A DNA stretch of 35,480 bases from a virus. Where the stretch lies: positions 1 through 35,480 of the IMG/VR virus record IMGVR_UViG_3300012207_000006; one strand, written 5' to 3'. The notes beneath the pieces were generated by a model. The model saw only the letters and a list, made by a program, of their open reading frames with translations, was not told the DNA's origin and did no database searches. Made by a program: the position numbers and the translations under genes. Shown here one piece after another: positions 1 through 35,480 of this stretch; positions within the stretch are counted from its first letter, which is position 1; each line of letters starts with the position of its first letter.

Positions 1-87
1 GTTCGCCTGCGTGTCCATCTCCACCCCCAAAGCGAGGAGATCCGCTATCGCCTTAGCCAACTTCACCAGACGTTCACGCTCAGTCAT
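1..87 (-). CDS. Truncated hypothetical protein, left copy (5' end only)
   Basis: The frame starts with ATG at 87 (reverse strand), preceded by AGGAAAG about 11 bases upstream, and runs off the window edge after 29 codons. It is identical to the frame at 35394-35480. The visible N-terminus starts MTERERLVKLAKAIADLLAL and looks like a charged amphipathic helix; no family is recognisable. The palindrome at 104-117 sits just upstream of the ribosome-binding site, where an operator would lie. Only one of the two end copies may be real if the repeat is an assembly effect. Confidence 0.5.
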   Translation of the reverse strand, partial: MTERERLVKLAKAIADLLALGVEMDTQAN

Positions 88-103
88 GGGGATTTTTCTT
101 TCC

Positions 104-117
104 TGACCGATCGGTCA
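104..117. promoter_or_regulatory. Perfect 14-bp palindrome, possible operator (left copy)
   Basis: TGACCGATCGGTCA is a perfect inverted repeat 17 bp upstream of the start of the truncated outward-facing gene. Its size and symmetry resemble operators of dimeric helix-turn-helix regulators (TetR-type operators are often like this), but nothing in the sequence names the protein. An identical site lies at 35364-35377. The TTGACCG half-site also occurs in the repeat array at 26932-26987. Confidence 0.45.
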
Positions 118-184
118 ATATCCCATACAGGATTATGTTAAGCTGGAGGCTCCACTACCCTACAAGGTTCTGGAAGCCCACCCC

Positions 185-388
185 TTACGGTCCCCAGCGT
201 CGAAGCTCCCACATCCAGAAGCCACCACGCCAGCGATAGATGCGCCCCCGATTGGGGCCACTGTACGGATATGGGCCACCGCTGAACGGAATGGGGCGCC
301 ACCACAGCCCCGGCCAGAACACCCACTGGAAACGCTCACCGTTTGGACCCATCGGGGGTTCTCTACGGGTTTCCCACCGCGACATCAC
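185..388 (-). CDS. Small hypothetical protein rich in Trp, Gly, Pro and Arg
   Basis: A 67-aa frame starts with GTG at 388, overlapping the stop of the upstream gene as GTGA; an ATG follows at 385. It has unusually many aromatic, glycine, proline and arginine residues (WVFWPGLWWRPIPF near the middle) and no signal peptide or membrane helix. No family is recognised. Its support is translational coupling and position at the end of the leftward series. A competing frame at 138-326 has no comparable start context. Confidence 0.45.
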   Translation of the reverse strand: MMSRWETRREPPMGPNGERFQWVFWPGLWWRPIPFSGGPYPYSGPNRGRIYRWRGGFWMWELRRWGP

Positions 389-573
389 TGGAGTTGGAGC
401 AGTGCGATTTCGAGGGGTTCAAGACTGGATTCATTCGGCTCCATCGTCCACCAGCCGCCCAATCGGCAGAGGATCATTTCGTAACTGAGGGGCTTTCCGG
501 CTTCGAGACCAGGATTGGAGGCAGCACGAATTATTGTACTTTGCGGGGCAAAGTTCTTTTCGCTTAATGCCAT
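385..573 (-). CDS. Small hypothetical protein
   Basis: A 62-aa frame begins at ATG 573, inside the last codons of the lipoprotein gene (the two overlap by 10 bases), and ends in a GTGA overlap with the next frame. The product is soluble-looking, with two tryptophans in the centre (CRLGGWWTMEP) and a leucine-rich C-terminus. I do not recognise a family. Support is tight packing and coupling with both neighbours. Confidence 0.45.
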   Translation of the reverse strand: MALSEKNFAPQSTIIRAASNPGLEAGKPLSYEMILCRLGGWWTMEPNESSLEPLEIALLQLQ

Positions 574-782
574 GACTTCGCCGCTTGTGGAATGAGGATC
601 AGCACAAACGCGCTGATGATGCCGAGCGCCAAGAGATCCGCGCCTGTGTGGTTATGCCTGGTGGAGTCTGCTGGGCTGGCGGTCACGGCCATTCCCGCTC
701 TTTGTGTGGGCCACCCGAGCGAGCAGCCCGCAAGAAAGGACGCCAGCGCCATGACCCAGCCCAACCGCCGCAGGATTCGCAT
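564..782 (-). CDS. Small lipoprotein with C-terminal membrane helix; possible spanin component
   Basis: The product has 72 aa from ATG 782 (ATG 800 is an in-frame alternative). It starts with a classic lipoprotein signal: basic MRILRR, a hydrophobic stretch, then the lipobox LAGC with Cys20 as the expected lipidation site. Residues about 50-65 form a second hydrophobic segment followed by a short basic tail. A lipoprotein signal plus a C-terminal membrane helix is the layout of unimolecular spanins such as T1 gp11, but the roughly 30 residues between are too few to span a periplasm alone. It could instead be the outer-membrane partner of the coiled-coil protein at 1040-1579. The lipoprotein call is firm; the spanin role is inferred from its place in the lysis region. 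Confidence 0.6.
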   Translation of the reverse strand: MRILRRLGWVMALASFLAGCSLGWPTQRAGMAVTASPADSTRHNHTGADLLALGIISAFVLILIPQAAKSWH

Positions 783-836
783 CCTGTAAGATGGGGTCAA
801 TATCTCAGAATTGCAAGTTATATCTCTGTAACGATT

Positions 837-10352: not shown

Positions 10353-10672
10353 TCTTGGAAGCGCTGCACGATGGCATCCATGCGCTGCTGCGATTCCTCA
10401 GCGGTGATCCGCGCCATCCCTTCCGGTGCCTGTTTACTGTGACCGTACTCTAGCGCCACAATGTAACGCACATCGTTGCCGATGACTTGCTCAGTACCGA
10501 ACTCCGACAATCCGGGGGGCGAGCGGAACCATCCCGACCGCGCATTGCCGGTGTCGATGGGCGTCCGCGCACGCACGGTCACCTGCGTCTCGGTTACAAA
10601 GGCGTCAATGATCTGCTCCGTGCGATGTTTCTGCATGAGCGCCACTTCGTCGAATGATCGGAAGGTGGCCAT
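10349..10672 (-). CDS. HK97 gp10-like neck / tail-completion protein
   Basis: I start at ATG 10672, which overlaps the preceding stop as TGATG, giving 107 aa. The sequence has the hallmarks of the HK97 gp10-like family: TVRARTPIDTGNARSGWF, then VRYIVALEYGHSKQAPEGM, then a C-terminal helix. These proteins sit at the head-tail interface. Its position directly before the tail terminator is the usual one. A longer frame reaching 11062 overlaps the upstream virion gene and is not needed. Confidence 0.82.
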   Translation of the reverse strand: MATFRSFDEVALMQKHRTEQIIDAFVTETQVTVRARTPIDTGNARSGWFRSPPGLSEFGTEQVIGNDVRYIVALEYGHSKQAPEGMARITAEESQQRMDAIVQRFQE

Positions 10673-11151
10673 CAGTCGCTCGTAGCTCCGGAAATTGCAA
10701 TGATCCCCGCAGCATCCAAAGTTATGGGGAACGTGTTGCCCGTCGTCGCTGTCACGTCGGCGGGTGTCGTGTCTAGCAAGCACACGCAGAGTAAGGGTTT
10801 CACGATGCCGTTGAGCGTCGCGTTCGCATAGATGACGGCGAAGCGTGCGATGATCGAGCCCCCAGAAGCCGTCCAGCTGGGATCGTTCGCATCGAAGGTG
10901 ACCGTCCCGCCAGAGCGCGTAAAGACTTCGCCTGTGAGTGCGACGCCCCCCGTGGTATAGCCATTGGCATTCGCGTGTTCGTTCGTGAGATCCCCATAGA
11001 CTCCCGTGCCGACGGAAAGCGTGTTCGCATTCGAAGTGGAAAGAAAGAGCGCGCACTGCCAATTAGCGGTGGCATCCATGTCGTGGGTGCCATCGCCGAC
11101 GTACTTTTTGGCGAAATCGTACATTTTCCATTTGCCTGCGGCGCCGCTCAC
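10672..11151 (-). CDS. Hypothetical virion protein, beta-rich
   Basis: The 159-aa product begins with KWKMYDFAKKYVGDGTHDMD and contains TANWQCALFLSTSNANTL, a pattern I associate with virion or receptor-binding region proteins of small siphoviruses, but no family name is certain. It is beta-rich with low charge, like structural proteins. It lies between a tailspike-like cluster and the neck gene, overlapping both neighbours by 4 or fewer bases. The role is unknown. Confidence 0.65.
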   Translation of the reverse strand: MSGAAGKWKMYDFAKKYVGDGTHDMDATANWQCALFLSTSNANTLSVGTGVYGDLTNEHANANGYTTGGVALTGEVFTRSGGTVTFDANDPSWTASGGSIIARFAVIYANATLNGIVKPLLCVCLLDTTPADVTATTGNTFPITLDAAGIIAISGATSD

Positions 11152-18992: not shown

Positions 18993-20189
18993 TTAGATCG
19001 AACTCGCCACACGCGCTGCGAGGCGCGCTTCGACGAGCTTCCACCCATGCAGGATGTCGAAGCTGAATAGATCACGCTTATTCTGCCGGGTGACCTCCAA
19101 TCGCAAGGTCAATCCGCTGATCGGGTCGCTCATTGAGATGTAGTTCCCCGAGCCGATGCTCTGGAGCGGGCGCGACGCGAACCCGAAGGCATCGGGATAG
19201 AACATCAGGTTGACCTTATGGCTCGGCAGCACCGATGCGCTATTGGCCGACGTGACGCCGACCTTGAGGCCCGGCGAGAACGACGTGACTGCCAGCGAGT
19301 TGGTCGTGGAGGTCACCAGCGTGTTGTTGACGTAGGTCTGGTTGTGGTTCGAGAACTTGAACACATCCCCGACCTTCAGCGTCAGCGCCGTAGTGATCGT
19401 GCCCACGAACGTGATCGCTGTATCTCCAACGTTGGCAGTCGGGCAGGTCAGCGTCTGCGCTGCGGTAGTGCCAACCGTCCCGGCAGTTTGGGTCGGGACG
19501 CCCTGATCCATCCACCAGTCCATCCCGATCTTGTGGCCGATGTTGCGATCCTGCACGCCAGCGGTGTCCCCGCGCTCCATCGTTTTGAGGAATGGCGACT
19601 GGAAGCTGGCATCCCAGTTGTCCTTGGGCGAGAGCACGACCACGCGCCCGGTCGGAGAGGCGCCGCCTTGATCGAGCAGCACACCTGCTTCGGCGACCGC
19701 ACGGAAGGCTGTGGGGTTTTTGGTGGCATCGACCACGAAGGCCGACGGTAAGAGCGTCGAACCGCCGCCGAAGTTGTCTGGTGCGCCCGTGTTGTAGATG
19801 CTCGTGTAGAGCGCCATGCCCTGAGCATCGACGTAATCGGCGAGCGCGATGACGGCCGACTTGACGCACCGCGGGATCGCGCCTTCCAGCACTTCGCCCG
19901 CTTCTTTGTCGGACAGCACGAAAGGCGCTTCGCGCCAGTCTGAGAGGACGAGCGCCGTGGTGCTCCAGGTCTGGGCGCCGGGGTCCGCCGCCGTGGCATC
20001 GGGGGCGACGGCGCGGGTCGCGACCGTCGGCTGGATCGGAATGTTGATGGTTGAGCCTCGCGAAGCTGCCACTTCGTCGGAGTAGTTCGCGACGAGTCGG
20101 GGCAGGACGCTGTTGGCTCGGAGCACGACGATACCCGCGGCGAACAGCCGCGGCAGTAGGTCGCTGTAACTGTTGGCAACGTTCGCCAT
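18993..20189 (-). CDS. Major capsid protein, P22 coat-like (gp5 family)
   Basis: The product is 398 aa, similar in length to P22 gp5. The N-terminus (NSYSDLLPRLFAAGIVVLRA, then LVANYSDEVAASRGSTINIP) is typical of this family, as is the later segment LVLSDWREAPFVLSDKEAG. A beta-rich insertion region from about 240 to 320 parallels the I-domain of P22 coat. The C-terminal stretch includes DPISGLTLRLEVTRQNKRDL. CGGAG lies nine bases upstream of the ATG. The protein should build an HK97-fold icosahedral shell with the scaffold-like protein. Confidence 0.87.
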   Translation of the reverse strand: MANVANSYSDLLPRLFAAGIVVLRANSVLPRLVANYSDEVAASRGSTINIPIQPTVATRAVAPDATAADPGAQTWSTTALVLSDWREAPFVLSDKEAGEVLEGAIPRCVKSAVIALADYVDAQGMALYTSIYNTGAPDNFGGGSTLLPSAFVVDATKNPTAFRAVAEAGVLLDQGGASPTGRVVVLSPKDNWDASFQSPFLKTMERGDTAGVQDRNIGHKIGMDWWMDQGVPTQTAGTVGTTAAQTLTCPTANVGDTAITFVGTITTALTLKVGDVFKFSNHNQTYVNNTLVTSTTNSLAVTSFSPGLKVGVTSANSASVLPSHKVNLMFYPDAFGFASRPLQSIGSGNYISMSDPISGLTLRLEVTRQNKRDLFSFDILHGWKLVEARLAARVASSI

Positions 20190-21680: not shown

Positions 21681-23117
21681 TTAGGCTCCTGGTGCGGGAA
21701 CGGCGGTTCCCGTGGTATCGGGGTTGTTGGTCTGGCCTGGGGCCTTGGGCTCAGGTGCGAATGCTGCCTGCGCTGGCGAGAACTGTCCAGCCGTCGCGGG
21801 ATCGAGTTGGAAGTCGCGCGTAAACTTGAAACTGCCACCGACGTGCGGATCACTTTTCACGTCCATGCCGAGATACTGCGCCGTGAAGTAGAGCGCCTGC
21901 TCGATCCCGTTTTCCAAATCCCCCACTACGGCCCCGAGCGTTGCGTCCTGCTCCGTGCGATCAAGAATGGACTTCTGCGCCGTCTCAGCCGCGCGCGATT
22001 TCCGTTGCAACATCGAGAGGCCGAGGTTCGCCATCTGCTCCTCGAGGTCGGACAGCAGAGCGCGGGTCGAACCGAGCGAAGCCCCTGTCGTCTCCAACCA
22101 CCGCAGCGTCGTATTCTGGTCACCCGATTTCACGAGAATCGCCCGATTGGGCCCGATCTGGATCTCGTTCTCATCGATCCCCACGCCAAAGAGCACAGGC
22201 ACGTTGGCGATGTGCGCGGCATGCGCCAAATCACTCCACATCTGGTAGTGCAAGAGGTTCAGGTTCGCGAGGTCCATGAGCGGCGGCCGGGCGTCCATGA
22301 AATCCGTATGCTCGGTATAGACGATGCCGAGCGGGATTTCGGTGACGGTTGGCAATTGCCCCGAACCGACAGAGACGAGTTTCCCACTTTGGGCTCGCTG
22401 CCACGATTCCCAGAGAATCACGGCTTCAGCGGTCGCCGGCGCGACGGCAGGTAAGCGCTTGAATGACCGATACTGCTCCACCAGCTTCACGCCATAGTCG
22501 CCCTTCGGGAGTTGAACAACTTCTTTCAGCACGAGCTGGGAAAGTAGCAGTTTCCCATCCTCGACCACCGTGCGGAAGCTCACGATGTTGTCCTTCGAGT
22601 ACATCGTCCAGTAGGGCCGAATCTCGGCGGCGAGTTCATCCGCTCGGGTAATGTTCTCCCCATCGAGCGTCGGCATCTCCACGAAAATTCCAGTGAGCCC
22701 CGTAATCAGGGCGTCGAGAAACGTGTGGCGCAGGAACATGTCGCCATTCGTCCCGCGATTGTCGATGTCGTCATCGTAGAGTTTCTGGATCTCGGGCGGC
22801 ACGCCTTCCGGTGTCGGCGGCTGGCGGAAGGCGATCCCCGTCAGCGCCCGGATGGTCCGCGCAAAGGCGTTGTAGAACGTCGGCCGCATGGATCGGATGA
22901 AGTAGTCTTTTTCCTCCTCGGCCGGATGTTGGGGCAGGTACTGTTGCCGCTCAGCGCGGAGCGCGTTGAATCCGCCGTACAGTGCCCGCACGAGTTTCAA
23001 TTCGGGTTGCCATGCGCGGACACTCGGCGAGGGAGTGGAGGGATCGTTTTCTTCGGTCCCGCCCTTGAACCCGGGGAAGTCCAGTAGGTAGCCAGTCAGC
23101 GAGCCCCAGAGACTCAT
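21681..23117 (-). CDS. Portal protein, DUF4055 family
   Basis: The 478-aa product matches the DUF4055 portal family. The early region shows LYGGFNALRAERQQYLPQHP followed by FYNAFARTIRALTGIAFR; the middle has PRAI-type crown segments, and the characteristic DFMDARPPLMDLANLNLLHY is present. The late part (LLSDLEEQMANLGLSMLQ) is the long tunnel-side helix. Twelve copies should form the ring at one vertex through which DNA is packaged. The gene overlaps the terminase stop by ATGA. The C-terminus is Pro/Ala/Gly-rich. Confidence 0.88.
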   Translation of the reverse strand: MSLWGSLTGYLLDFPGFKGGTEENDPSTPSPSVRAWQPELKLVRALYGGFNALRAERQQYLPQHPAEEEKDYFIRSMRPTFYNAFARTIRALTGIAFRQPPTPEGVPPEIQKLYDDDIDNRGTNGDMFLRHTFLDALITGLTGIFVEMPTLDGENITRADELAAEIRPYWTMYSKDNIVSFRTVVEDGKLLLSQLVLKEVVQLPKGDYGVKLVEQYRSFKRLPAVAPATAEAVILWESWQRAQSGKLVSVGSGQLPTVTEIPLGIVYTEHTDFMDARPPLMDLANLNLLHYQMWSDLAHAAHIANVPVLFGVGIDENEIQIGPNRAILVKSGDQNTTLRWLETTGASLGSTRALLSDLEEQMANLGLSMLQRKSRAAETAQKSILDRTEQDATLGAVVGDLENGIEQALYFTAQYLGMDVKSDPHVGGSFKFTRDFQLDPATAGQFSPAQAAFAPEPKAPGQTNNPDTTGTAVPAPGA

Positions 23118-24601
23118 ACGGCGACCCTCACGGAAATGACGGGACGACGCCGCGCGGCCCGGACCAGAACACCGGCCGCCGCATTGGCGAGGTCGTCATG
23201 TCCCCCGGGGGCGTGGTCGATCGAATCCTGACCGGAGCGCGCGACCTTCCGTTCGAGGCCACAGAGTTGCGCCTTCAGACGGGGTAGGTCGAGCAACTCG
23301 CAGCGCCCAGCATTCAGCAATGGGAGCCACTCTTTGTAAATGTCGGATTTCGGAATCTCCGAAGTCCGGTAGGTGATGCCGTGCTTCTTGAACAATTCTC
23401 GCGGAAAGATCCCGCCGTAATGATCGCCTTCGACATCCGCAATGCCGTAGGATTTCAGCACGGTCGCGTAATCGGTGGTGACCGCATCAGGCGAAAAGGG
23501 TGGTTGGGTTTCGCGCACCACGTCAAGAACCGGCTTCGCGTCCTCGAGATGCCCTACGGCCAAGGTCCAAGCATCCTGTGAGCCACCGCTGGGATCGGTG
23601 AACGCGAAGTAGCGCCGCTGCAAAACGCCGGAGGTGTTTTTCTGCGGCTCCAGCTCGCGCCGATTCGCGACCATCACTGCTTGCACGGCGTCGGGATCGA
23701 CGAAGCTTTCCACGTCGGCGCGGAACACCACGGAGCCACCTTGCCCGTACTCGCTGGCGGCCACCGTGGCATCTTTGTCGAATTGTTTGGCGATGAATTT
23801 GCGGAGCCGCGGTGAGTCATGCATCGACAGCGTGTCCGCATTCCAGACCAATACGTCGGGCACGTCTTTGCCGAAATACTCGACATGCGCCCGGTAGAGC
23901 TCGCCTTTCCGCGCATAGGGCGTTGAGCCACCCAGCAGGAGCGAGTCGGGCACGGTGGCCATACCGGGGCGCAAGGCATCGAGCACTTCGCTGTCTGGCT
24001 CGGCGGAATCATCGGAGCGCCAGAACGCCACTTCGTCGGTGACCAGGCCGACGACGGTGTAGCCGCGCGTGGTCCGGTAGGAGGCCGTGGCGATTTCGAC
24101 CGTGACGCCAGTCTTGAACTCCACGGATGCGGTGAGCGGATCGCGGACGAGAAAGCTTTGAATCGCACTCAATGCCGCAAAGCCCTTCAGATAGTTAAGC
24201 ACTTGGCGGGCTTGTTTCCGATCAGCAGCGATGACGGGAATCACGGCGCGTTCGCCGGGTGCCAACAGGGGAGTGTAATCGCGTCGGATTGCCATCCAAC
24301 CAGCAGCCACTCCAAAGTTGCGCGATTTCCCGCCGCGGCGTCCCACCAATCCCCACGCTTCTCCAACGGGTTCGCTCGGCGGCGCCGCGCGCCCTGTGTG
24401 GCGCTGATAGACGAGCAACTCGGCCGGGGTCATCGGTAAGCAAAACACGGCTTTCCAGAAGACGCGCCAGTTTTCCCACTGCGGGCCATCCATGCCAGCA
24501 AGTGTCAGTGCGTCGAGGATTGTTCCGGTATAGGGCACAACGGCGGTTGCGGGCAGCAATTCCGGTTCGGGTGGCGGCAGGGCCTTGGCTTTACGGGGCA
24601 T
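23114..24601 (-). CDS. Terminase large subunit
   Basis: From ATG 24601 the product is 495 aa; in-frame starts at 24616 or 24628 are possible. The ATPase shows Walker A GRRGGKS (87-93) and Walker B VVGLVTDE (183-190) with catalytic Glu190. The nuclease half has Asp336 in FAFTDPSGG, acidic TTDYA near 377, and the late acidic pair in HDDLANA (469-470). This motor cuts and packages DNA into the prohead. The winged-helix gene lies directly upstream and the portal gene directly downstream, the standard packaging order. Confidence 0.93.
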   Translation of the reverse strand: MPRKAKALPPPEPELLPATAVVPYTGTILDALTLAGMDGPQWENWRVFWKAVFCLPMTPAELLVYQRHTGRAAPPSEPVGEAWGLVGRRGGKSRNFGVAAGWMAIRRDYTPLLAPGERAVIPVIAADRKQARQVLNYLKGFAALSAIQSFLVRDPLTASVEFKTGVTVEIATASYRTTRGYTVVGLVTDEVAFWRSDDSAEPDSEVLDALRPGMATVPDSLLLGGSTPYARKGELYRAHVEYFGKDVPDVLVWNADTLSMHDSPRLRKFIAKQFDKDATVAASEYGQGGSVVFRADVESFVDPDAVQAVMVANRRELEPQKNTSGVLQRRYFAFTDPSGGSQDAWTLAVGHLEDAKPVLDVVRETQPPFSPDAVTTDYATVLKSYGIADVEGDHYGGIFPRELFKKHGITYRTSEIPKSDIYKEWLPLLNAGRCELLDLPRLKAQLCGLERKVARSGQDSIDHAPGGHDDLANAAAGVLVRAARRRPVISVRVAV

Positions 24602-24647
24602 GCTGTGAAACAAGATATGTGCCAGCACCTCTAGCGCAAGCGGTTTG

Positions 24648-24998: not shown

Positions 24999-25375
24999 GG
25001 CGCGATGGGCACTTGGTCAGTGATGACGATTCTCACCTGACCCTTCGGAAGGTTGTCGTGCGCATCGGTACGCCACCGCTCGTCGTGCGCGATCTGCTTG
25101 TCGTTAGTGTAGACGGTGCCCTGCAACGAATCGTAGAGGCATTTCGTCCGTTCGCCTAAATCCCCCGCTTTCCGTCCGCGATGCCACACCACTGCGACAC
25201 TCACGTCGCCGTCGGGAAACGCCGGGATGCCGTTCACTCGCACAGTGTGCGCGAGCGTAGCGACAAGTTCGCAGTAGGCTTTTGCCTCACGCGTTTTGTA
25301 CGTGACGTGGCCGTGAGTACGCAAATATCTATTCGCGGCGGGGGGCTCGGGAAGTACAAGCTCGACGTATGTCAT
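24995..25375 (-). CDS. rusA: RusA-family Holliday junction resolvase
   Basis: From ATG 25375, which overlaps the upstream stop as ATGA, the product is 126 aa, normal for RusA; GTG 25402 is an alternative. The N-terminus (VELVLPEPPAANRYLR) is typical. The active-site block reads GDLGERTKCLYDSLQGTVYT then NDKQI: Asp72, Lys78, Asp82 and Asp92 are present, while the second Asp of the E. coli DxD is Gly74, a variant I have seen in other phage members. It should cleave four-way junctions to resolve recombination or branched DNA before packaging. Confidence 0.88.
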   Translation of the reverse strand: MTYVELVLPEPPAANRYLRTHGHVTYKTREAKAYCELVATLAHTVRVNGIPAFPDGDVSVAVVWHRGRKAGDLGERTKCLYDSLQGTVYTNDKQIAHDERWRTDAHDNLPKGQVRIVITDQVPIAP

Positions 25376-25974
25376 CCCTTTTTGCACAACCAGCTCGGCC
25401 ACGGCATGGGTTCAGGCTTCGTCGTCCAGCCATGACACAGAATATAATTCGGGGCGAACTGCTCGCAGACCGCTTTCGCGACGGGGAACATCATAAAATC
25501 GTCCCCTCCCATCCAGCCGCCCGGTTTGACCTTCGGCCACCAGGCCAGAATATCTGCGGTGACACCTTCGTAGGAGTGGTCGCCATCGACCCAGACTACG
25601 TCGGCCGAGGCATCGGGGAAATCTTCCGCGGCTGCGACTGAGGGTGACCAATGGACGACGAACCGATCCTCGAGCCCCGCCGCAATCGCCCCCATGTTGC
25701 GCTCGAAGACCTCGTGAATCGCTGGTCCGTTAGCGATACCGTTCGGCGTTTCCCACGCATCGACGCAATGCAAGGTGCAGGGCAACTGCCGGTTGAGAAT
25801 CTCCACGCCAAGAAACGCCGTAGACTTGCCTTGATAACTCCCGATTTCCACGAACACCGACGGGCGATCCAGGGCCAGGGTTTGCAGCATGCGGCGATAG
25901 CCAACTTCAAACCAGAAAAATCCATCCAGCTCTTGGTAATAATGCGGCATCACGGACCAGGAAACGCTAGTCAT
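25372..25974 (-). CDS. SAM-dependent methyltransferase, class I (Methyltransf_24 type)
   Basis: The 200-aa product has a clear motif I (VFVEIGSYQGKST, about residues 40-52), an acidic end of the second strand (LHCVDAW), and a motif around VVWVDGDHSYEGVTAD at about 126-140, then KPGGWMGGDD. This pattern is that of class I enzymes of the Methyltransf_24 type, often found near sugar or cell-envelope genes. The substrate cannot be read from sequence. Start ATG 25974 overlaps the upstream stop; ATG 25950 is an alternative. It lies between a zinc-ribbon protein and RusA. Confidence 0.8.
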   Translation of the reverse strand: MTSVSWSVMPHYYQELDGFFWFEVGYRRMLQTLALDRPSVFVEIGSYQGKSTAFLGVEILNRQLPCTLHCVDAWETPNGIANGPAIHEVFERNMGAIAAGLEDRFVVHWSPSVAAAEDFPDASADVVWVDGDHSYEGVTADILAWWPKVKPGGWMGGDDFMMFPVAKAVCEQFAPNYILCHGWTTKPEPMPWPSWLCKKG

Positions 25975-26386
25975 CGACGCCCTCCGAAGCGCGGCGCGGG
26001 CGGTGCAACTCGGGTGCTGGAATCGCATAGGGCACCACTCGCGCGGTCAGAGTCGCAGCATAGGCATCGTCTTTGTCGCCACATGCGGGACAGATACCGA
26101 ATGGCAGGGGCGAGCCCTTGGAAGCAGACGGGCCGAAAATGAGCCCGTCCCATTCGCCCCCGCACACTCGGCACCGCTTCCGCGCTGAAGTCACAACTGT
26201 CGTTGGCGATGGCTCGTCAACGTGAGCACCTGGAACCCAACGCGGGGCATCGGCAGCATTGGGATTCGTATCCCGCCGGCAGGACTGGCACACGCACGGA
26301 TCGCCCTTGCCTTGCATAGCCCAGTATTCGCGGGCGTAATCTTGCCCGCACTGATGGCAAAGAATTGGGTTAGGCGCCGTTGCCAT
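25967..26386 (-). CDS. Multi-zinc-ribbon protein
   Basis: From ATG 26386 the product is 139 aa with two complete zinc ribbons: CHQCGQDY plus CVCQSCRRD near the N-terminus, and CRVCGGEW plus CPACGDK in the second half. A proline-rich linker (HVDEPSPTTVV) separates them. It overlaps both neighbours. DNA or protein binding is likely, but no family is recognised. A longer upstream frame is only the shadow of the helicase-loader gene. Confidence 0.68.
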   Translation of the reverse strand: MATAPNPILCHQCGQDYAREYWAMQGKGDPCVCQSCRRDTNPNAADAPRWVPGAHVDEPSPTTVVTSARKRCRVCGGEWDGLIFGPSASKGSPLPFGICPACGDKDDAYAATLTARVVPYAIPAPELHRPRRASEGVDD

Positions 26387-30948: not shown

Positions 30949-31209
30949 GCGACCAAAAGTTCTGCAAGGGATGCGACAGCGATTTCTACAACGGCAACAA
31001 ATCCGCTGGGCGTAAAGCGATGCTGGCATCTTGACACGGCGAAGGTGGTGACGCGCTATCGCATCGGCTGGTGGACACCCCCGACGGCCCCCGGCGCATT
31101 TACGAAGATTCAGATGCATGCATGCCATACCGCATCGGGGCGCTATGCCTTGTTTGAGAAACTTCCTGACTGTGCGGTGGGGTCTGTTTCTTCTGGTGGG
31201 AAACCATGA
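30945..31209 (+). pseudogene. Zinc-binding protein gene split by a one-base frameshift
   Basis: ATG 30945 overlaps the upstream stop as ATGA and starts MSDQKFCKGCDSDFYNGNKS, but this frame stops after 29 codons at 31034. From about 31015 the +1 frame continues as RCWHLDTAKVVTRYRIGWW, then IQMHACHTASGRYALFEKL, and ends at 31209 exactly in an ATGA overlap with the next gene. Joined, the two parts give about 87 aa with one continuous zinc-ribbon-like character. Either a base was gained near 31014-31017 (mutation or assembly error) or the ribosome shifts by +1 here. Confidence 0.6.
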
Positions 31210-31604
31210 GCATGGGTAACGGGACCACCCACGGCTATTACGTCGAAGTGCGCGCCATCGAAGGCGTGGGTATCCAGAGGTTGCCGGGGGATTTTGTCGT
31301 CGCGCAGGAATGGAAACGTCTCCCCGTATCCGTGACGCGGGGCGCCGGTGTCCCTACGGGGCTCTATTGTCGGATCACTGAAGCGGTGACGGATCTTGTG
31401 TCGTTCGCTGCGGCACATTCGCTCATGGCGTGGGCAGCCGCCTCGACGGATCTCGGCGGCGTGGGACTCGAATTTCGCCTCGTGGAAGCGGCGCTCACGT
31501 ATTCCTGGAAAGTCGAAGATGTCGCGCACGGCGAGCCTGTCAGTTTCTTGGAACGTCAGCGCAGGGAATTTCCGCGTTCGGGTGTGGGGGCTGGGAAACC
31601 ATGA
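31206..31604 (+). CDS. Hypothetical protein (132 aa)
   Basis: ATG 31206 overlaps the upstream stop as ATGA; ATG 31212 is an alternative. The product starts MSMGNGTTHGYYVEVRAIEG and has a beta pattern (VVAQEWKRLPVSVTRGAG) and an alanine-rich helix (LVSFAAAHSLMAWAAA). A Cys and scattered His residues do not form a clear metal site. Family not recognised. It overlaps the next gene by ATGA. Confidence 0.6.
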   Translation: MSMGNGTTHGYYVEVRAIEGVGIQRLPGDFVVAQEWKRLPVSVTRGAGVPTGLYCRITEAVTDLVSFAAAHSLMAWAAASTDLGGVGLEFRLVEAALTYSWKVEDVAHGEPVSFLERQRREFPRSGVGAGKP

Positions 31605-31882
31605 GCCCCCCAACTGCAGGTATCCGTGATGCGGACGTGCAGGCGCTGATCGCCCGGGCGGAGCCGCGTGATCGCGTCATTCTTGCGACACTCCCCGACG
31701 ATCCTGAGCGCATTCACCATGTCGAGCGCCACGATGTCATGGTGATTCCGAAAGAGGACTGGATTCAGATTCTCATCTGGCTCGCTGAACTGTCACGCGA
31801 AATCGCCCCACGCATTCCGGGTAACAAAGTTGAAGTCAGTCGGAGGGTCCCGCGGGGTCCTGGTGGGGAGCCCCCGAAGTGA
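31601..31882 (+). CDS. Hypothetical protein (93 aa)
   Basis: ATG 31601 overlaps the upstream stop as ATGA. The product (ADVQALIARAEPRDRVILAT, then VMVIPKEDWIQILIWLAEL) reads as a small alpha/beta domain, followed by a basic Pro/Arg-rich tail (RRVPRGPGGEPPK). It is translationally coupled to the methyltransferase gene by GTGA. No family is recognised. Confidence 0.58.
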   Translation: MSPPTAGIRDADVQALIARAEPRDRVILATLPDDPERIHHVERHDVMVIPKEDWIQILIWLAELSREIAPRIPGNKVEVSRRVPRGPGGEPPK

Positions 31883-34423: not shown

Positions 34424-34833
34424 ACGAACTCGACCGACTCTATGCGCGTATTCCGAAACTGGAATGCAAGCGATTGTGCCAGCAGTCCTGCGGCCCAATC
34501 GTCATGAATCGTCTCGAATGGGAGCGCATCAAAGAGCGCCGCAAAGGTCTCCCGATGTTCGCGAGCGCCGAGAATCGCCAGACGCTGACGTGTCCATACC
34601 TGGACGAGACGCACGGCTCCTGTTCCGTATATGCGGCTCGCCCGTTGATCTGTCGGCTCTGGGGCGTCGTGAAGCGAATGCGCTGCCCGTGGGGATGCGC
34701 CCCGGCGAAGTGGATGTCAGATAAGCAAGCGCGCAGGCTACTGCGTGCGGTGCAGCGATTGTCGGGCGGCCCCGAGTTGTCGCCCGATATGGAACTGTGG
34801 AATGGTGTTAAATCGGTGGACGTGAAAGGATAG
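34420..34833 (+). CDS. YkgJ-like cysteine-cluster protein
   Basis: From GTG 34420 the product is 137 aa; an in-frame ATG at 34303 is possible but lies inside the previous gene. It has eight cysteines, Cys16, Cys20 and Cys24 (LECKRLCQQSCGP), Cys58 and Cys68 (CPYLDETHGSCSVYAARPLI), Cys78, Cys89 and Cys93. The CSVYxxRPxxCR phrase and the CxxxCxxxC start are those of the YkgJ / UPF0153 family, which is thought to bind zinc or iron. Role in a phage is unknown. Confidence 0.68.
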   Translation: MNELDRLYARIPKLECKRLCQQSCGPIVMNRLEWERIKERRKGLPMFASAENRQTLTCPYLDETHGSCSVYAARPLICRLWGVVKRMRCPWGCAPAKWMSDKQARRLLRAVQRLSGGPELSPDMELWNGVKSVDVKG

Positions 34834-34837
34834 GGGA
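34822..34837 (+). repeat. 16-bp duplicated intergenic junction, copy 1
   Basis: GTGAAAGGATAGGGGA occurs here and again at 35033-35048. In both places it ends a gene with the codons for Val-Lys-Gly and stop and supplies AAAGGA and GGGGA upstream of the next start. It may have been duplicated with a ribosome-binding site. Confidence 0.6.
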
Positions 34838-34840
34838 CCC

Positions 34841-35044
34841 ATGAAGGACGACTACCGAAACCTCCTCCCGAACTGTGTCGAATATCCGTTTCCGCTGCGT
34901 GCGAACGGAAACGTCTGCTTCTGGTTGCCCCGGGATCTCTCAATCGCCGAGGCGCGCCGACTCGCTGCGTTCGTGGAGACGCTGGTAGACGTGAACAAGA
35001 CGGCGGAGCCGTGGCCAGTCGCAGATGTTGCGGTGAAAGGATAG
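34841..35044 (+). CDS. Small hypothetical protein (67 aa)
   Basis: ATG 34841 follows the AAAGGATAGGGGA junction, a good ribosome-binding site. The 67-aa product reads NLLPNCVEYPFPLRANGNVC, then FWLPRDLSIAEARRLAAFVE, an alpha/beta mini-domain. It ends with Val-Lys-Gly like the gene before it, because of the duplicated junction. No family is recognised. Confidence 0.58.
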   Translation: MKDDYRNLLPNCVEYPFPLRANGNVCFWLPRDLSIAEARRLAAFVETLVDVNKTAEPWPVADVAVKG

Positions 35045-35048
35045 GGGA
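35033..35048 (+). repeat. 16-bp duplicated intergenic junction, copy 2
   Basis: Identical to 34822-34837. It spans the end of one small gene and the start region of the next, including the ATG's first base at 35048. The identity over stop codon and ribosome-binding site suggests recent duplication or gene-by-gene insertion. Confidence 0.6.
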
Positions 35049-35350
35049 TGCCCCCACCCATGAGTCAGAAATTGCGCCGAGGCTGGGTGCATTGCGACTG
35101 CGGCTCGCCACATCCAGGCTGGTGGTCGCACGGGCTCGGCATGATGAACGTTCAAAAGCATATCGCACTTCCCAGAGGCTGGCGCTGGTTGCGACTAGGC
35201 GAATTACCCAAACGGGGCGACGTACTAGTCGATCCCCGGGTGCGCCCCGTCGTCATCAAAGTCGCTGGGATAACGCGCGAGTGGCGACTCACAGAGAGTC
35301 ATCATCCGGTACGTCGGCGGGTGGCTTCCCGTCACTCAGGTAACCCATAG
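35048..35350 (+). CDS. Hypothetical protein with CxC motif (100 aa)
   Basis: ATG 35048 directly follows the duplicated junction; ATG 35060 is an alternative. The product has WVHCDCGSPHPGWWSHGLG, a single CxC with nearby histidines, then a beta-rich part (VLVDPRVRPVVIKVAGITRE). It is the last complete gene before the right inverted repeat. No family is recognised. Confidence 0.55.
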   Translation: MPPPMSQKLRRGWVHCDCGSPHPGWWSHGLGMMNVQKHIALPRGWRWLRLGELPKRGDVLVDPRVRPVVIKVAGITREWRLTESHHPVRRRVASRHSGNP

Positions 35351-35363
35351 GTCCGAAGGATAT

Positions 35364-35377
35364 TGACCGATCGGTCA
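35364..35377. promoter_or_regulatory. Perfect 14-bp palindrome, possible operator (right copy)
   Basis: TGACCGATCGGTCA lies 16 bp upstream of the start at 35394 and 14 bp after the end of the preceding gene. It is the mirror copy of 104-117. The preceding TAT makes TATTGACCG, a 9-mer also found at 26951-26959 in the candidate origin. Confidence 0.45.
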
Positions 35378-35393
35378 GGAAAGAAAAATCCCC

Positions 35394-35480
35394 ATGACTG
35401 AGCGTGAACGTCTGGTGAAGTTGGCTAAGGCGATAGCGGATCTCCTCGCTTTGGGGGTGGAGATGGACACGCAGGCGAAC
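35394..35480 (+). CDS. Truncated hypothetical protein, right copy (5' end only)
   Basis: The frame starts at ATG 35394 with AGGAAAG upstream and is cut by the window edge after 29 codons. Its sequence is identical to the left-end copy. It continues the rightward run of small genes, so this copy is in natural order. The visible part is a charged helix (ERERLVKLAKAIADLLAL); no family can be named. Confidence 0.55.
   Translation, partial: MTERERLVKLAKAIADLLALGVEMDTQAN

Follow-up and report, generated by a model that had tools for sequence, protein, structure and literature searches.

A virus record whose two ends are exact inverted copies of each other raises the question of whether these ends are the termini of a linear genome or a product of its assembly. 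The stretch of DNA analyzed here (the window) spans a virus record of 35,480 bases from its first base to its last; therefore, the 123-bp repeats sit at the ends of the record itself and do not result from a scan cut.

The terminal repeat and its gene setting

Our self-comparison of the entire 35,480-base record bore out the sequence description given in the initial annotation, namely exact 123-bp inverted termini that carry a palindrome and an outward-facing frame. Over 123 bp, bases 1-123 match the reverse complement of bases 35358-35480 without a single difference, and this terminal pair is the sole inverted repeat of at least 25 bp in the window; the chance expectation for an exact inverted match of this length is about 10^-74. 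The inner edge of the repeat is sharp: ungapped identity is 23-28% just inside it, and the alignment score of the 400-bp inner flanks is in the range of shuffled sequences, 52 of 200 shuffles scoring at least as high. In the outward direction, the elements of each copy are GGATAT, then the palindrome TGACCGATCGGTCA, then a purine-rich stretch, and finally an ATG from which the codons stay open to the end of the record. The features to which the analysis refers are the following, where L097 is a metagenomic relative of the phage:

1..123, minus strand (read outward): left copy of the 123-bp terminal inverted repeat (self-comparison)
1..87, minus strand (ATG at 87, reading to 1): outward ORF start of 29 codons from ATG, left copy, frame open to the record end
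104..117, no strand: 14-bp palindrome TGACCGATCGGTCA, left copy (palindrome scan)
185..388, minus strand: last called left-arm ORF before the repeat, with a weak L097 homologue (33% over 33 residues, E 0.003)
385..573, minus strand: small left-arm gene with an L097 homologue (43% over 47 residues, E 1e-9)
564..800, minus strand: small lipoprotein-like left-arm gene with an L097 homologue (35% over 72 residues, E 2e-4)
23114..24628, minus strand: terminase large subunit (phrog_2, E 1e-15)
35048..35350, plus strand: last called right-arm ORF, its stop 7 bp before the repeat (ORF call)
35358..35480, plus strand: right copy of the 123-bp terminal inverted repeat (self-comparison)
35364..35377, no strand: 14-bp palindrome TGACCGATCGGTCA, right copy (palindrome scan)
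35394..35480, plus strand: outward ORF start of 29 codons from ATG, right copy, frame open to the record end

The left arm, on the minus strand, encodes the terminase, a portal of the DUF4055 kind, a P22-like coat protein, tail genes with a J-like protein, and an endolysin, while the right arm, on the plus strand, holds small genes, an HNH-like protein (below the Pfam cut-off), and a CxxCxxCC protein. With a terminase large subunit, a portal, and a major capsid protein, the record belongs to a tailed phage with terminase packaging. A Methyltransf_24 gene (25372-26028, minus strand) is located among the genes upstream of the terminase.

The repeat begins 61 bp past the last called ORF of the left arm (stop at 185) and 7 bp past that of the right arm (stop at 35350). 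All but 6.7% of the window is covered by called ORFs, a figure that depends on a by-eye choice among many overlapping small ORFs, and both inner edges of the repeat fall in the uncovered part. In the right arm, exact direct repeats are also present at successive gene starts, one of 16 bp (34822-34837 and 35033-35048) and one of 15 bp (31197-31211 and 31592-31606), as if the small genes of this arm had been joined or copied through shared start regions.

The frame that opens within the repeat stays open up to both record ends, and for this reason the outward gene is cut twice. The translation of its 29-codon start, MTERERLVKLAKAIADLLALGVEMDTQAN, matched no Pfam family, gave no tblastn match against phages at E 10, and did not align with a look-alike small ORF in L097; the DNA of the right end matched neither phages nor plasmids. 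Among 298 genomes from the phylum of G005, one gave a 40-base match at 83%; with an E of 8e-4 per genome, about 0.24 such matches are expected over all of them. This match is located in an unrelated setting and was counted as chance. Regarding the palindrome, the window has three perfect palindromes of at least 14 bp against a shuffle mean of 2.7, and a 14-bp palindrome is thus not rare by itself. The sequence TGACCGATCGGTCA may be an operator; its interpretation as a telomere or an unusual site was rejected on account of this ordinary count and of a search of the record in which no protelomerase was found.

Relatives of the phage

The viral_contigs collection was queried with the terminase, the capsid protein (alone and as an alignment), the portal, the tail J protein, and one right-arm protein, and the relatives identified were L003/L013 (19.6 kb, from portal to J only), L004, L005, L097, and L099. 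The nearest are metagenomic: L013 (capsid 62%, J 68%) and L097 (J 68%). None of these relatives crosses to the right arm, and only L097 passes J on the left, where it carries homologues of genes 564-800 and 385-573 and then continues for about 1.8-2 kb more in the same direction; no right-arm homologue was found in that continuation. The L097 continuation suggests that the left arm of the window is cut short, although the two phages differ in their gene order after J. One scan of genome_contigs yielded three distant capsid relatives, and a distant J relative in G291 shares only tail genes with the window. An exact 39-mer from the repeat had no matches in viral_contigs, a collection from which close records may have been withheld, and no contig continuing past the repeat was found there.

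Two further observations were made in these comparisons. First, the capsid protein (18993-20189, minus strand) contains a stretch of about 70 residues (approximately 235-306) that is almost identical to that of L003, the whole proteins being 62% identical; this may be a recently exchanged or a strongly constrained segment. Second, gene 10672-11151 (minus strand) is 79% identical to L013:4865-5332, which adjoins the head genes in L013 and lies about 7 kb further on in the window; many window-only genes are found in between, and the head-tail gene order is rearranged relative to L013.

Repeat length and assembler k-mer size

The initial annotation had proposed comparing the length of the repeat with the k-mer size of the assembler. 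We made this comparison indirectly, using published k-lists, gokushovirus contigs with 123-bp repeats, and a toy assembly, and its outcome was positive. MEGAHIT is given with '--k-list 23,43,63,83,103,123', the largest k being 123, in the assembly passage of PMC6081815, and the same list, ending at 123, is stated for JGI metatranscriptomes in the corresponding passage of PMC6243002. According to the passages on terminal repeats in the CheckV paper (PMC8116208), metagenomic contigs have direct terminal repeats whose lengths cluster at the k-mers of assemblers.

Gokushoviruses, which are small circular viruses without true ends, were chosen as a control, with a threshold of at least 15 bp for direct repeats; the sample consisted of the best 80 of 598 confirmed contigs, one of them an isolate record and 79 metagenomic contigs from IMG/VR. 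In this sample, 40 of the 79 metagenomic contigs have a direct terminal repeat of at least 15 bp. Exactly 123 bp is the length in 5 of these 40 contigs, or 5 of all 79, and the five come from five datasets (3300012942, 3300017748, 3300017781, 3300017786, and 3300017957). The remaining repeats of the same best 80 of 598 pile up at 121 bp (11 contigs), 99 (4), and 55, 127, 144, and 50 (2 each), and 12 contigs have single other lengths. An inverted terminal repeat of at least 10 bp was found in none of these 80 contigs (the best 80 of 598 confirmed); the inverted form of a k-mer overlap rests on simulation and has no real neighbor among them. Three oversized contigs in the control (L049, L050, and L063), of 6.3-8.2 kb compared with 4-5 kb for most of those listed, all come from dataset 3300020043 and are possibly chimeras or concatemers.

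The simulation was a toy de Bruijn assembly of random DNA with k = 123. A plain circle produced a direct terminal repeat of 123, and templates with inverted repeats of about 123-1500 bp produced a terminal inverted repeat of exactly 123 bp, be they circles, linear molecules with terminal repeats, linear molecules with unique tails, or a two-variant mixture. A circle with a 122-bp inverted repeat also gave 123, presumably as a result of a match at the next random base; a 100-bp inverted repeat in a circle was resolved, and the 60-bp terminal repeat of a linear molecule came out at 60. A length of exactly k is therefore what any true repeat of about k or more would give, whatever its full length, the sequence beyond it, and the linear or circular form of the molecule; its inner edge is real.

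The repeat of the window has the length of a k-mer in use for the collection, together with exact identity and a sharp inner edge. In k-mer length, identity, and edge it is like the direct terminal repeats described in those CheckV passages (PMC8116208), but it is inverted, and consequently points to an inverted repeat instead of a closed circle.

Explanations of the inverted ends and their meaning

Considering these results, the 123-bp inverted termini are probably a k-mer overlap of the de Bruijn graph at an unresolved inverted repeat, and not viral ends. The assembler, presumably MEGAHIT as JGI ran it with a largest k of 123, would have extended the contig outward from the phage body in both directions; both extensions would have stopped at the same branching k-mer, met once per strand, which would then have been written at both ends of the contig. 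The branching would be caused by a stretch of about 123 bp or more that the sampled phage DNA carries twice in inverted orientation, placed at the distal end of each convergent arm; it would start between genes, shortly before the palindrome and the ribosome-binding region of a small gene. On this reading, the repeat has a real sequence boundary at its inner edge and one set by the program at its outer edge. The initial annotation had left a choice between a stop inside a longer inverted duplication, an assembly overlap, and true inverted ends. We favor a combination of the first two, in which the assembler k sets the length and an inverted repeat of about k or more makes the extension stop; the third was unsupported. 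Most likely, the record is unclosed, and it should be treated as such.

Several other origins lead to the same contig in the toy assembly and have to be weighed against the k-mer overlap. One is a real linear genome of the protein-primed or hairpin class, whose terminal inverted repeats exceed 123 bp and were reduced to k bases by the assembler; linear toy molecules with 300- or 800-bp terminal inverted repeats behave in this way. However, neither the protein-primed DNA polymerase B family PF03175 (phi29 control, E 3e-113) nor the protelomerase family PF16684 (control matches in 1 of 14 genomes) was found in the record, which is possibly incomplete; the record has a terminase large subunit and a portal, as in phages that package from concatemers; and L097 runs on in the same direction, so that we consider this origin very unlikely. 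Phages of the phi29 type (Salasmaviridae, protein-primed) share with the window an inverted sequence at both ends, but the phi29 record annotates a 6-bp repeat unit, compared with 123 bp here, and phi29 has the PF03175 polymerase that was not found in the window. A molecule whose real terminal inverted repeat measures exactly 123 bp also reproduces the contig in the toy assembly, yet it requires a coincidence with the assembler k, leaves an open gene cut at both ends, and belongs to a lifestyle whose replication proteins (the same two families) were not found in the record, all of which makes it extremely improbable. True viral termini were therefore rejected on the basis of the needed proteins not found and the k-mer length.

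The repeat copies could also bound an invertible segment, such as a phase-variable module, in which case the palindrome would belong to a recombination site. From the toy assembly, such a segment between inverted repeats of at least k should give the same graph as a fixed inverted repeat, and each copy has a palindrome and a gene start that reads into the missing segment. Neither a serine recombinase (PF00239, found in 10 of 14 control genomes) nor a tyrosine recombinase (PF00589, in 14 of 14) was found in the record, although the missing segment could hold one, and known invertases use much shorter sites; this origin is highly improbable. A strain mixture, with the cassette placed beyond the right arm in one variant and beyond the left arm in a second, or a chimeric molecule that attached one arm to the cassette, yields the same contig in the two-variant toy assembly. 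Nevertheless, both inner edges lie outside the called ORFs, at the upstream region of the gene, which a random join would seldom achieve with only 6.7% of the window uncalled. A true cassette boundary is favored for this reason, and the repeat fits better as a small-gene cassette with its own upstream region at both convergent arm ends; we regard the chimera or mixture as unlikely. It is rather improbable, too, that in this terminase-encoding, siphovirus-like phage the two divergent operons terminate in identical copies of a gene cassette, one inverted relative to the other and each with an operator-like palindrome, and that these copies flank a missing invertible or true terminal segment.

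The finding is ordinary in kind; an unusual inverted cassette or an invertible module keeps a small residual probability. Its significance concerns how such records are read. The passages of the CheckV paper on terminal repeats (PMC8116208) count 624 contigs with inverted terminal repeats in IMG/VR; of those for which completeness could be estimated, only 33.2% were of high quality. Pipelines take inverted terminal repeats as a sign of a complete linear genome; those with the length of an assembler k-mer more likely stem from an inverted repeat that the assembly left unresolved, and should not be taken for complete genomes, and comparing the repeat length with k provides a simple filter.
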